A stretch of DNA of 32,792 bases, from the NCBI GenBank assembly GCA_905612265.1, contig CAJQRI010000053.1:1-32792 (forward strand), written 5' to 3'. The notes beneath the pieces are model-generated. The model was not told where the DNA came from and searched no databases. It worked only from the letters and a program-made list of their open reading frames with translations. The DNA is from an uncultured Nitrospinota bacterium (GTDB taxonomy: Bacteria; Nitrospinota; Nitrospinia; Nitrospinales; VA-1). The first letter of the stretch is position 1, and each line of letters opens with the position of its first letter. Both the position numbers and the translations under genes were made by a program. This document shows, piece by piece, positions 11,197-17,188 of this stretch.

Positions 11197-12485
11197 TGGA
11201 TTTCGCGACAACACTTATACTCGTGCTACTGGGAATACTACTGGAAGCATTTTTTTCTGGCTCAGAAATCGGCATGGTTTCTGTAAACCGCATAAAAATG
11301 AAACACCTTGCAGATGATGGAAGTTCCGCCGCGCGGTCCATCTTAAAATTACTCGAAAACCCTGAACGGCTCTTCACCACGACCTCTTTGGGAACCAATC
11401 TGGCGATGGTAGCTAGCACTGCTGTATTCACCGCATTCATGGTCACGCACTTTGGGGATACCGGGGAATGGATGGCCATGATGATTATTTCTCCTTTGAT
11501 ATTTTTTGTGGGAGAAATTATCCCAAAAATTATTTTTCAGCATCGCGCCGATTCCGTGATGCTATTTATGATTTACCCGCTGTTTTTTTTCTATAAAATT
11601 CTTTCTCCATTTACAAGCTGGCTATCAAAAGCATCCGCAAAGTTTACTAATAGTGTTCAGTTAGCCTCTACGGCGGAGCACAAGACCTTTAGTCGAGATC
11701 AACTACGAGGAGTTTTGAGCCTGGAATCACAGACTGTGGACTTAGGTGCGACGGAAAAGAAAATCATTCACAATATTTTTAATTTCGGAGAGCTTCGAGC
11801 AGAACATTGCATGGTTCCACTCATTCAAATGATCGCCATAAAAGATACGGCTACGTTGGCGGAAGCTCATGTTGTTGCCAATGATTCCGGTTTCTCACGA
11901 GTGCCGGTTTTCCATGAAAGAATGTATAACCTTATTGGAATTTTAAACACTTTTGATCTATTGGACCAGCCAGTTGATCACACTCCCATCACTAACCTCA
12001 TCCGTCCGGCTTACTATATTCCCCCGAGCAAAAAAGTTGATGACCTTCTCAAAGAGCTTCAGCAAAGAGGCTTGCATATAGCCATCGTGGTGGACGAGTA
12101 TGGTGGATGTATCGGTTTGATAACGATTGAAGATCTTCTGGAAAAAATTGTCGGTGAAATTGAAGACGAATACGACAAACCCGAGAAAACCTACGAAACC
12201 TATGCGGATGGAGGGTATCTGGTGGATGGCAGCACAGAAATAAGCGTTCTCAACGACGCTCTCAACTGGGATCTCCCCAGTGGAGATTTCGAGACTCTTG
12301 CCGGCTTGACCATTGACCGACTTGAAAGAATCCCAAACTCCGGTGATCAGCTTCTGGTAGGTTCCTATCGGTTAACTGTTAAAGAAGCAAGTAAACGAAA
12401 AATTCAATCCCTGATTATCCGTAAACTGAACACACAGCAGGAAACCAAAACGGATAAAAAAACCAGGCCCCTTAAAATTTCCTGA
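11196..12485 (+). CDS. CNNM/CorC-family membrane protein with CBS pair (second paralogue)
   Basis: The ATG overlaps the previous stop in TAATG. The 429-residue product repeats the architecture of its neighbour: a DUF21 membrane domain ([18 protein letters not shown] near the N-terminus, long hydrophobic helices to about 150), a CBS pair ([39 protein letters not shown]), and a CorC-type C-terminal domain ([20 protein letters not shown]). The two are clearly diverged paralogues rather than a recent duplication. The adjacent pair suggests they may act as a heteromeric ion-transport unit in the inner membrane; that is inference. The 3' end overlaps the convergent J-domain gene by 14 bases (12472-12485). 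Confidence 0.92.
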
Positions 12486-13194
12486 CCTTTTCCAACGCCT
12501 GATAAGCTGATTGAACCTCAATAAATTTCAAATGGGCCTCATGAACCGTATTTTCATCCTCCATGGCAACGCGGTCAGGATGACACTGGCTAGCCAGATT
12601 GCGATAGGCTTTTTTGATTTCATCATTAGAAGCTTTAGAGGAAAGCCCTAATACATGGAAAGGTGTTTTAAAAGGTTCGAGCAAATACTTCGCCCTGACC
12701 TCGTTATGCTGGTCATAGGACAACCCCAACTCCGATACGATTTTTTTTATCAGGGATTGAGTTTCTTCACCTAAATCATTCCCAACCAAAGTAATCTGAT
12801 AACATAGAGCAAGAAGCAAAAGGTTGTAATTATTTTGGCAGGAATCTTTATACTCCTTCACAAATCGGTCAATATCCGGTTTTTTGGACCCGACTTCCTT
12901 GATCAAGCGATCCAAGGACTTTAAGTCTGAAGAACCATAACTCAGATTCTTCATAAAAAAATTATGGATCACGGCCACTTGTTTCGGTAGCAATGCACCC
13001 GACTCCCTGGCCACACGTGCTAGAATGACAACCAGACTTGTAATAAATTCGCCCTGCTTTGTAATACCTGGTAAACTTTCCTGCAGTTTTTTCTGGAGTT
13101 TTTTACCCAAAAAATGCTCCATAGTTCCACCGATGACAGCACCCAAAGGACCACCACGTAAAAAACCTAAACCTGCACCCATCCACCAAGACAT
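12472..13194 (-). CDS. DjlA-like co-chaperone: TerB-like region plus C-terminal J domain
   Basis: A 240-residue protein. The N-terminus (MSWWMGAGLGFLRGGPLGAV) is Gly-rich and hydrophobic, like the membrane-anchoring start of DjlA. The middle (about 45-165) is a helical acidic region resembling TerB. The last 65 residues are a J domain (TPFHVLGLSSKASNDEIKKA, HPD at 205-207, then YQAL near the end). J domains stimulate the ATPase of DnaK through the HPD tripeptide. Placing the J domain at the C-terminus after TerB matches DjlA. The gene is on the minus strand and convergent with the second CNNM gene, with overlapping 3' ends. No SD of note; GTGAG lies about 13 bases upstream of the ATG. Confidence 0.85.
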   Translation of the reverse strand: MSWWMGAGLGFLRGGPLGAVIGGTMEHFLGKKLQKKLQESLPGITKQGEFITSLVVILARVARESGALLPKQVAVIHNFFMKNLSYGSSDLKSLDRLIKEVGSKKPDIDRFVKEYKDSCQNNYNLLLLALCYQITLVGNDLGEETQSLIKKIVSELGLSYDQHNEVRAKYLLEPFKTPFHVLGLSSKASNDEIKKAYRNLASQCHPDRVAMEDENTVHEAHLKFIEVQSAYQALEKVRKF

Positions 13195-13324: not shown

Positions 13325-13615
13325 ATGGTCAAGCACATTGTTATGTTTAAACTGGCAGAAAAAAATCAGGAAAATATGGATCAGGTTATGACTGCCCTCA
13401 ATAGCCTGAGAGGGAATATAGAAACCTTAAAGTTTCTTGAGCTGGGAAATGATTTCTTAGGCTCTGAAAGGAGCTATGATATCGTCCTTACAGCTCATTT
13501 TGATGACCTTGAAGATTTAAAGGTATATGCAGACCATAAAAATCATTTACCTGTCGTAGACAAAGTGCGATCCCTCTGCTCCGCATCCATCGTTGTGGAC
13601 TACCAAACGGAATAA
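13325..13615 (+). CDS. Dabb (stress-responsive alpha/beta-barrel) domain protein
   Basis: A 96-residue protein of the Dabb superfamily: MVKHIVMFKL at the start carries the conserved His of strand 1, and the middle and end (YDIVLTAHFDDLEDLKVY, HKNHLPVV) match the dimeric ferredoxin-like barrel. GGAGG lies 9 bases before the ATG. The family includes plant stress proteins and bacterial enzymes of polyketide or heme-related chemistry, but most short bacterial copies have no known function. No operon partner is visible, and the preceding J-domain gene runs the other way. Confidence 0.88.
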   Translation: MVKHIVMFKLAEKNQENMDQVMTALNSLRGNIETLKFLELGNDFLGSERSYDIVLTAHFDDLEDLKVYADHKNHLPVVDKVRSLCSASIVVDYQTE

Positions 13616-13940
13616 CGCTGGCCTAGGCTTTATCAAAAAACTTAATTTTTTTATGCCATCTAGGCAAATAAAATCTTGTACTTTATTTTCTCAAGTGCTA
13701 AAGTTCAAGAAATTTTTATCCAGCCATGGATAAGATGCAATAAAAACTAGAGAATCAGGGTAAAAATAATAACGGGAAAATCGTCTCTATGTCATTCGAT
13801 CAATAGGTGATGGGAGGCTAAAAAAATTTATCTACCCACCCATACTTTCGTCTAGCTAAACATATGGATAGCTAATGATTTTGAGTTACCTTCCCGAATG
13901 AATGCATCATAAGAGTTCCCTTTAATATAGGAGATTCGGC
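13616..13940. other. Intergenic region upstream of the H1-DksA fusion gene
   Basis: 325 bases without a supported gene, AT-rich. It contains GCCTAG near 13621 and CTAGGC near 13660, which could pair across a loop of about 33 bases, and two copies of TAGCTA (itself a palindrome) 10 bases apart near 13853-13874. I see no clear sigma-70 promoter, terminator or RNA gene. It presumably holds the promoter and leader for the gene starting at 13941; AGGAG lies 7 bases before that ATG. Confidence 0.4.
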
Positions 13941-14618
13941 ATGGCAACGAAAAAAAAGTCCGCAAAGAAAATCGTTAAGAAGACTTCTGCAAAGAAGAAA
14001 GTTATAGCTAAAAAAAAGGTAGCCACTAAGAAATCTGCAAGCAAGAAAACCGTAAAACCTACCAAAAAACCCGTTAAGAAAAAAGCAACTAAGAAAACTG
14101 TGGCAAAAAAAGCATCTCCAAAGAAGAAAATCAAGGCTTCTGCTGTAAAGAAAGCGACTAAAGCAACTGTGAAGAAGGCCAAAGTTTTACCCACAAAAAC
14201 CAAAATAGCAAAAAAGAAGGCCAAAACTTCAAAAAAAACCAGTACCAAGCCGGGTAAACGTATGGTAGCCCAATTAGACCCTGCGGTGCTTAAAATCCGC
14301 GAGCGTCTTATTGTCAATCGGGCTGAGTTATTGAAATTGATTCAGGCTTCTCAATCTGTCGAGCGTGATGCTGGAGATTTAACGTTTAGCAACGAAATCG
14401 ATCTTGCCTCAAGTCTTGAGGGGAGGGAAATGACTTTCCAATTAACCAGCCGGGACCGCAATGAGCTGAAGTTAATTGAAGAAATCTTATTCAGAATAAA
14501 CAACGGTAGTTACGGGGATTGTGATTCCTGCGAAAAGAAGATCACTTTGAAGCGCCTTCAAATTATGCCATTAGCCACTTTATGCATCGAGTGCCAGGAA
14601 GACGCTGAGAACCTTTAG
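13941..14618 (+). CDS. Histone H1-like Lys/Ala-rich tail fused to a DksA/TraR zinc-finger domain
   Basis: The 225-residue protein has two unlike parts. Residues 1-108 are almost wholly Lys, Ala, Thr, Val and Ser in KK-rich repeats (such as KKKVATKKSASKKTVK), like the C-terminal tails of histone H1 and bacterial H1-like DNA-binding proteins. Residues 113-225 resemble DksA/TraR: a coiled coil, then a C4 zinc finger C194/C197 (CDSCEKK) and C215/C218 (CIEC). Known role of DksA: it enters the RNA polymerase secondary channel and modulates transcription with ppGpp. At the coiled-coil tip the DxxDxA motif of E. coli reads NEIDLA (151-156), so by my alignment the first Asp is Asn and the second is kept (D154). 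The basic tail would bind DNA nonspecifically. AGGAG precedes the ATG. It ends 8 bases from the convergent secA. Confidence 0.9.
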   Translation: MATKKKSAKKIVKKTSAKKKVIAKKKVATKKSASKKTVKPTKKPVKKKATKKTVAKKASPKKKIKASAVKKATKATVKKAKVLPTKTKIAKKKAKTSKKTSTKPGKRMVAQLDPAVLKIRERLIVNRAELLKLIQASQSVERDAGDLTFSNEIDLASSLEGREMTFQLTSRDRNELKLIEEILFRINNGSYGDCDSCEKKITLKRLQIMPLATLCIECQEDAENL

Positions 14619-14626
14619 CAGCACTG

Positions 14627-17188
14627 TTACTGGCCGTGACATTTTTTGTATTTTTTACCACTCCCACAAGGACAAGGGTCGTTCCTACCGACTTTATCTT
14701 CATCGCGACGAACCGTTACCGATTTTTCTAGAGGCTCTGAGTTCCCCCGGTGCTCCACAAATTTCGAGGGTTTGTTGACCAACTCCTCTGGAGCTTCCAC
14801 CTCTTGGTTGATCTCAGCTTTAAACAAGTATTTCGTGGTTTCTTCTTTAATGCTTGCCATCATGTTGCTGAACAGGTCAAACCCTTCTTTCTTATATTCA
14901 GTCAGAGGGTTTTTCTGAGCATAACCTCGTAAACCGATTCCTTCTTTGAGATGATCCATGCCTAGCAGGTGATCTTTCCAGAACGAGTCAAGAATCTGCA
15001 GCATAATGACTTTTTCAACATGCCGCATGAACTCGGAATCAATACCCTCTTCCTTGGCTTCGTAGGCTTGGGTCACTGCCAAGATAACAGCATCATGAAG
15101 CTTCTCTCTATTGCAGTTCTCCAACTCCAGTGAAGTCTTTCCCTGAAGTAGTAACTCATGCTCACCAGACTTTTCAATATGAACCCCAAACTGCCTTTCC
15201 AGCAACTCATTCAAACCTTCGACATCCCATTCTTCAGGGTATATTTTTTCATGAGCAATATCAGCAAGAGCTTCATCCACCACCTCGTCGGCCATATCCA
15301 GTAGGACATCTTTCCCGTTTTCTGTGTTGATGATTACACGGCGCAAGGCGTAAAGCACTTCTCTTTGACGGTTCATAACATCATCATATTCCAGAAGATG
15401 TTTACGTATATCAAAGTTGTGCGCTTCTACTTTTTTCTGTGCGTTAGCAACCGCTTTCGAAACCATGGAATGCTCAATTGGTTGTCCATGTTCCATTCCC
15501 AACCGGGCCATTAAAGGAGATATTTTATCCGATCCAAAAATACGCAGTAAATCATCCTCAAGACTCAGATAGAAACGGGAAGATCCATTGTCCCCCTGCC
15601 TTCCAGAACGGCCCCTCAACTGGTTATCGATGCGGCGACTTTCATGCCGTTCAGTTCCAAGAATATGAAGGCCACCCAACTCAGGAATGCCCTCACCCAA
15701 AACAATATCAGTACCTCGGCCAGCCATATTCGTCGCAATGGTAACGGCTCCGGGTTGCCCCGCCTGTGAAATAATCTCGGCTTCTTGCTCATGATGCTTG
15801 GCATTCAATACACTATGTTTAATACCCGCCTTTTTCAGTTTTTTACTCAAAAGCTCTGATCTTTCGATAGATATCGTACCAACCAGAACAGGCCTCTTGA
15901 TCTCATTCAGCTCTTTAATCTCTTCGATGGCGGCATCATATTTTTCCATTTCTGTTCGGAAAATCATGTCAGGACAATCTTCTCGAATCATGGGCTGATT
16001 CGTCGGAACCACAATAACTTCGAGTTTATAAATTGAACCGAATTCTTCAGCCTCGGTATCTGCGGTTCCGGTCATACCACCCAGTTTTTCATACATTCTA
16101 AAATAATTTTGGAAAGTGATGCTTGCGAGGGTCTGATTTTCGTTTTCAATTTTTACGCCCTCTTTCGCCTCCAAAGCCTGATGCAATCCATCGCTATAAC
16201 GCCTACCCGACATCATGCGGCCGGTGAACTCGTCAATAATAACGACTTCACCATCCTTAACCACATAGTCCACTTCGTTTCTGAATAGCCCATGCGCTTT
16301 AACCGCTTGATTAAGACAATGAAGTGTTTCAATATTATTTGGATCGTACAGGTTTTCCATACCCAACAAGTTTTCCATTACGACAATACCATCATCCGTC
16401 AAAGCGGCAGTCTTGGCTTTTTCATCAACCAGATAATGCTCTTCCTTTTTCAACTGAGGAACAAGCTGGTTCACCGTATAATACTTGTCGGTAGATTCCT
16501 CCGCCGGCCCGGAAATAATCAAAGGCGTTCGAGCCTCATCGATCAAAATGCTATCCACCTCATCCACAATGGCAAAATTCAGTTCGCGCTGAACCATTTG
16601 ATCTCTCGAGAACTTCATATTATCTCGGAGAAAATCAAACCCGAATTCATTGTTGGTGCCATAAAGCACATCTGCGGCATAAGCCACCTTTCTATCCTCC
16701 TCAGGAATATCGTGATAAATCATGCCCACAGATAGACCTAAAAATTTATAGATCTTTCCCATCCAGTCGCTGTCACGAGTCGCCAAATAGTCGTTAACCG
16801 TTACGATATGCACGCCTTTTCCAGACAAAGCATTCAAGTAAACCGGTAAAGTTGCCATGAGGGTTTTCCCTTCACCGGTTTTCATTTCTGCTATTTTTCC
16901 TTCATGCAGAACCACTCCGCCTATAATTTGCACATCAAAGTGACGCATTCCAAGCACCCGCACACTAGCTTCTCGGACAACAGCAAATGCTTCAGGTAAA
17001 ATTTCATCTATGGTAGCGCCATTGGCCAGTTTGCCTTTCAGCTCTGGTGTTTTGGCCATAAGCTGATCATCAGAGAGCGCCTTCATCTCATCCTCAAGTG
17101 CGTTCACAGCAACTACATAGCTTTGAATCCGCTTAATCTCACGGTCATTACGAGAACCAATAAGTTTTTTGATTAAACCAAATACCAT
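14627..17188 (-). CDS. secA: Preprotein translocase ATPase SecA
   Basis: The motor of the Sec export pathway, acting at the inner membrane with SecYEG. The 853-residue length is normal. Motifs: Walker A KTGEGKT (103-109), the DEVDSILID helicase block, [11 protein letters not shown], the GTISIERSE region, [13 protein letters not shown] in the second helicase domain, and the C-terminal zinc-binding SEC-C motif ([19 protein letters not shown]), which typically contacts SecB or ribosomes. The start at 17188 gives the expected N-terminus ([20 protein letters not shown]). The M23 peptidase gene lies 164 bases upstream on the same strand. Gene and motifs appear intact. Confidence 0.98.

Follow-up and report, generated by a model that had tools for sequence, protein, structure and literature searches.

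Results

A lysine-rich tail and a DksA-like body in one frame

The window, as we call the whole 32,792-nucleotide stretch of uncultured Nitrospinota DNA that was analysed, carries a dksA-like gene at positions 13,941–14,618 of the forward strand, a single open frame of 225 amino acids (stop codon included in the coordinates) that is also supported by its orthologues. A Shine-Dalgarno-like AGGAG lies at 13,929–13,933 (+), 7 nt ahead of the ATG, in agreement with the good ribosome-binding site seen in the sequence-only reading of this DNA. That reading had described an in-frame join of a Lys/Ala-rich tail of about 108 residues to a DksA body, and the 225-codon frame indeed runs through both parts without interruption. 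The tail (residues 1–108; 13,941–14,264), delimited by composition and predicted to lack regular structure, is followed by the first helix of a coiled coil (residues 113–145; 14,277–14,375; structure models and alignments), the coiled-coil tip N151-E152-I153-D154, which aligns with D71-P-V-D74 of E. coli (14,391–14,402), the second helix with R171, E175 and L178 (residues 158–188; 14,412–14,504; models and alignment) and a C4 zinc finger formed by C194, C197, C215 and C218 (14,520–14,594; Pfam PF01258 and alignment), where M209 occupies the position of E. coli R129; all of these parts are on the forward strand.

The neighbouring genes were assigned by Pfam matches and synteny. Upstream, in a conserved context, is a gene for a Dabb stress-responsive barrel (13,325–13,615, +), and downstream is the convergent secA (14,627–17,188, −), which is not part of the protein; 8 nt separate the stop codons of the two genes. 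The 325-bp intergenic stretch 5' of the gene (13,616–13,940) had no Rfam match, and an upstream gap of similar size was also found in relatives. A two-domain TerB-DnaJ protein encoded at 12,472–13,194 (−) is kept in the neighbourhood across the order. An antisense ORF at 13,922–14,317 (−; 131 a.a., Phe-rich) mirrors the Lys codons and was rejected as a gene candidate.

A DksA-family body with an altered tip

The protein belongs to the DksA/TraR superfamily, having its PF01258 zinc finger and coiled coil. The zf-dskA_traR model (PF01258) reached 47.4 bits, above its cut-off of 24.9, and solved DksA structures were matched by sequence with E-values down to 4e-11. When the body was modelled alone (mean pLDDT 79.6), it formed a helical hairpin with a zinc-finger base whose top PDB matches were all DksA chains, and against polymerase-bound E. 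coli DksA (5vsw, chain M) it reached a TM-score of 0.87 by query length. Among solved structures, P. aeruginosa DksA2 (4ijj) was the best match in both sequence and fold (E = 5e-7 for the body model; 36% identity over the fold alignment); unlike the window protein, which keeps all four zinc Cys, DksA2 lacks part of them in the sequence alignment and has no Lys tail. The complete coiled coil of DksA type and the C4 zinc finger noticed earlier were thus recovered with family models, solved structures and all four Cys.

The similarity to E. coli DksA is incomplete. Both NCBIfam DksA equivalog models scored below their cut-offs (TIGR02420, 66.5 of 115.5 bits; NF033459, 68.2 of 105 bits). In the alignment to E. 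coli K-12 DksA, for which the reference sequence was taken from NC_000913, R91 (R171), D74 (D154), A76 (A156) and the four zinc Cys are kept, whereas the DxxDxA tip is replaced by N151-E-I-D154-L-A156. The claim that one of the two DxxD acids is replaced therefore holds, with D71 corresponding to N151 and D74 to D154. The motif FSNEID(L/M)AS was found at the tip in all 54 Nitrospinales orthologues, and Asn stood at the D71 position in 19 of the 20 tailed representatives, the remaining row, from family f6, keeping Asp. Asp was likewise present at this position in all six tail-less orthologues compared. In E. coli DksA, a change of R91 lowers RNA polymerase binding and the double change D71N/D74N leaves the polymerase bound while regulation fails (PMC10746185); D74 is the tip acid necessary for activity (PMC7461557). 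Elsewhere in Nitrospinales, families f2 and f3 (L040, L044, L062) have a five-residue insertion in the zinc finger just past the first Cys pair (CVDCP[FM]G...), which is not present in the window's family.

Replacement of the ppGpp site 2 contacts

E. coli DksA contacts ppGpp at site 2 through L95, R91, K98, R129 and K139, and either K98A or R129A alone abolishes the site (PMC7676912). In the window protein only R91 is kept (R171), the other positions being replaced (L95 by E175, K98 by L178, R129 by M209 and K139 by Q219). The same replacements prevail in the 20 tailed Nitrospinota orthologues, with E or G at L95 in 20/20, L or M at K98 in 20/20, M or L at R129 in 20/20 and Q at K139 in 17/20, and most of the contacts are replaced throughout the clade, tail-less members included. 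The window protein thus probably lacks ppGpp site 2. Since RelA/SpoT was present in seven of the eight genomes of the order searched, ppGpp is presumably made there; the earlier description of the protein as a ppGpp-linked regulator is nevertheless not supported, because the site 2 contact residues are replaced both here and in the clade. Judged by equivalog cut-off, tip and site 2 residues, the protein would not be classed as DksA sensu stricto, that is, as the ppGpp-dependent E. coli type.

A probably disordered polycation under selection

The tail (residues 1 to about 108) is rich in Lys, Ala, Ser and Thr, and the 111 residues ahead of the coiled coil comprise 42% Lys and 0% Asp/Glu, with one Arg, no aromatic residue and no Cys. 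In the full-length AlphaFold model, which is poor owing to a shallow alignment and the tail, residues 1–113 had a pLDDT of 40–48 and no helix or strand. The histone H1-like family models remained far below their cut-offs (Burkholderia family NF038053, 13.8 of 80 bits; NF038052, Hc2, 10.4 of 135 bits). Both Lys codons are used (27 AAA, 20 AAG), so the tail is no DNA homopolymer artefact.

In 38 orthologues, the tails ranged from 102 to 205 residues (mean 137) and had a similar make-up, with 40% Lys (s.d. 5%), 2% acids, 15% Ala and 7% Pro. Between neighbours, dN/dS was 0.08–0.56 in the tail vs 0–0.08 in the body; the tail is under purifying selection, which holds its make-up rather than its letters. 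Such drift with kept charge is the pattern expected of a disordered polycation.

A tail-only query matched only itself and missed even tailed orthologues known to exist, as low-complexity filtering discards matches of this kind; the search is therefore uninformative about further Lys-rich proteins, and we instead used a sample of 400 kb drawn evenly from a one-contig relative (G017), about 12% of its genome, together with the window. A single other ORF in this sample had a 60-residue stretch with at least 30% Lys, and therefore, as far as that roughly 12% of the G017 genome goes, the tail is no general trait of the lineage's proteins. The ORF (L227:19,137–19,919, −, in G017) encodes a long Lys-Asp dipeptide repeat and is probably a simple-repeat expansion.

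The fusion in Nitrospinales and its relatives

Nitrospinales is an order of marine nitrite-oxidiser relatives. Our phylum set comprised 77 genomes, 64 of them from four families of this order, and an orthologue was present in 54 of the 64. Among the 54 distinct Nitrospinales orthologues, 53 have the tail and the remaining one begins at a contig end, so that both parts form one gene across the whole order, as the sequence-only reading had supposed for the window. In nearly all Nitrospinales loci that are long enough, the gene lies between the Dabb gene and convergent secA. Most genomes also carry a separate, tail-less DksA-like paralogue, in which both tip acids are kept (14 of 14 representatives); the window's genome, a 1.04-Mb, 57%-complete metagenome assembly, shows the tailed gene alone.

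In the class outside the order, the orthologue is tailed in family f6 (L064), tail-less in f7, f8 and f9, and absent from f5. Homologues without the tail, which had been named in advance as grounds for doubting the fusion, do therefore exist, but they reflect gain or loss of a tail in one orthologous gene and do not speak against the fusion itself. The orthologues group together as a single clade (SH-aLRT 97) in which the tailed Nitrospinales are nested as a clade (99). Since the deeper orthologues are tail-less and two of them, from f8 (L063, L158), also adjoin secA, a DksA-like gene already present next to secA probably acquired the tail in place. Alternatively, the tail may have been lost in f7–f9, the tree being weakly resolved; and because the tailed f6 row is a long branch, one and two gains within the class are indistinguishable. 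A mobile or phage origin was rejected: the viral-contig scan returned no relative, the body alone found matches in plasmids and phages, all of them to distant DksA/TraR proteins, and the gene has a fixed chromosomal place by secA.

Tailed DksA proteins in other phyla

Lys tails on DksA were also found in Gammaproteobacteria (24 of 35 loci, with canonical DxxD bodies), Nitrospirota (15 of 23 loci, two body types) and Bacteroidota (8 of 13 loci, bodies without three of the four zinc Cys); these loci were picked to cover both tail states, and the fractions are not frequencies. The tailed gammaproteobacterial rows keep L95, K98 and R129 in 11/11 cases and K139 in 10/11. On one tree across the four phyla, the tail state changes at least 12 times, gain and loss being indistinguishable on this quick tree of 84 rows and 121 columns, which was built without the tails and has many open forks. 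This tree cannot be reconciled with a single origin of the tail unless many losses followed. Lys-tailed DksA is not exceptional, occurring in four phyla here and, as published, in Streptomyces.

Several of these proteins have peculiarities of their own. The Bacteroidota bodies (L138–L145, L194–L197) have the first zinc Cys only and the tip MEDGS, and some members carry Lys/Ala/Pro tails of 140–260 residues. The two tailed types of Nitrospirota (L146–L153, L199–L204, L213) have the tips FPD(L/M)GDQA and VDTA(L/V)D(D/E)GDW, and some genomes seem to carry both.

Discussion

The fusion architecture is not new. According to the later papers that cite its original description (Aldridge et al. 2013, cited in PMC9043899, PMC11942623 and PMC6637917), the Streptomyces 'bifunctional histone' DdbA (SCO2075) consists of an N-terminal DNA-binding H1-like domain and a C-terminal DksA domain, and two of them report effects of a ddbA deletion on chromosome compaction and on the stress resistance of spores (PMC9043899, PMC11942623). 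The window protein has the same arrangement as described there (PMC9043899), with an H1-like Lys-rich N-terminal part and a DksA C-terminal part in one protein, and in both lineages a further DksA-like protein coexists with it (SCO6164 in Streptomyces; PMC9739823). The two belong to different phyla, and the likeness is to the description of DdbA in these accounts. With E. coli DksA the window protein shares the fold, the four zinc Cys, D74, A76 and R91, and differs in its 108-residue basic tail, the Asn for D71 and the replaced L95, K98, R129 and K139. The tail is, like the AlgP/Hc1-type H1-like proteins, a disordered polycation rich in Lys, Ala and Pro, whereas those proteins stand alone or are joined to other partner domains and their family models match the window protein weakly (13.8 bits at a cut-off of 80).

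We consider the protein to be a chromosomal DksA-family secondary-channel factor, anchored to the nucleoid by its H1-like tail and probably without ppGpp site 2, a reading to which we assign a probability of about 0.6. By family and fold, the zinc-finger/coiled-coil body would dock on RNA polymerase and reach into the secondary channel. The tail, judging from its composition, the selection on it and the DdbA precedent, would bind nucleic acid non-specifically, most likely DNA, and would concentrate the factor on the nucleoid, a tethering that is plausible by analogy. DNA compaction or local DNA density might in this way be coupled to transcription, as has been proposed for DdbA. In Nitrospinales the body probably does not respond to ppGpp through site 2, and with its altered tip (Asn for D71) it would likely modulate the polymerase differently from the tail-less DxxD paralogue; together, the tip change and the loss of site 2 residues could also point to weak polymerase binding by the body or to a different mode of action. 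A more far-reaching proposal, possible but doubtful, is that Nitrospinales divide DksA work between the tail-less DxxD paralogue and a nucleoid-anchored, ppGpp-independent, architecture-coupled polymerase modulator (D71 lost, no site 2, histone-like tail), and that this is one case of 'chromatin-bound' DksA having arisen several times independently across phyla.

Other explanations of the tail have to be weighed against nucleoid anchoring. Polyanions other than DNA, among them RNA and polyphosphate, are also targets of Lys-rich tails. The main rival, which we hold to be unlikely, is that the tail aims at such a polyanion (polyphosphate granules, rRNA, nascent RNA) or drives condensate formation and does not anchor the protein to the chromosome. 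Neither the sequence nor the fold of the tail shows any specificity, and the Pseudomonas H1-like protein AlgP, tied to polyphosphate granule spacing, provides a precedent, its authors discussing binding of the Lys-rich domain to polyphosphate (PMC9239181); however, the body is that of a polymerase factor working at DNA, the papers citing DdbA describe that protein as DNA-binding, and the neighbourhood gives no hint of polyphosphate or PHA. It is rather improbable that the protein is a plain DksA paralogue whose tail is a low-complexity expansion under loose constraint and of little function (solubility, slippage-prone repeats). The tail's variable length (102–205 residues) and fast sequence turnover, its repeated coming and going on the tree and the tail-less orthologues of f7–f9 would fit such an expansion, but dN/dS is below 1, the make-up (40% Lys, 2% acids) is kept over the order, no intact tail-less orthologue occurs among the 54 of Nitrospinales, the use of both Lys codons argues against a homopolymer artefact, and such Lys density is rare in the sampled relative.

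Two further alternatives concern the protein as a whole. The DksA fold, the presence of RelA/SpoT in the order and the existence of gammaproteobacterial tailed DksA with kept ppGpp contacts might be taken to favour the DNA-tethered, ppGpp-responsive DksA originally suggested for this gene; that is very improbable in view of the replaced contacts in the tailed Nitrospinota orthologues and of the E. coli K98A and R129A changes, either of which alone kills site 2 (PMC7676912). Joining of two genes by an assembly or sequencing error, a natural concern with a 57%-complete metagenome assembly, is already refuted, as 53 orthologues show the fusion in genomes that were assembled separately, the one-contig G017 and G037 among them.

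What the present analysis adds to the Streptomyces precedent is that nearly all members of an order have the fusion, that it probably arose in place by secA and that Lys-tailed DksA underwent at least 12 changes of state among four phyla; features of the lineage are the Asn that replaces D71 in all Nitrospinales orthologues read and the absence of the ppGpp site 2 residues. We regard the evolutionary recurrence of tailed DksA as the most interesting part. Given the repeated origin, a nucleoid-anchored secondary-channel factor becomes a general question, testable by tail deletions, which would be easiest in culturable Gammaproteobacteria, whose DksA otherwise resembles that of E. coli. Their Lys-tailed proteins resemble the window protein in the fusion of a Lys/Ala tail to DksA, and differ in that DxxD is kept, the ppGpp contacts are nearly always kept, and they form a separate clade with separate tail changes; for a nucleoid-bound, ppGpp-responsive DksA they are better subjects than the window protein. 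Lys/Ala N-terminal tails of about 75–250 residues on canonical DksA were observed in many gammaproteobacterial species (L012, L123–L137, L174–L180, L192, L193), close relatives of which are tail-less.
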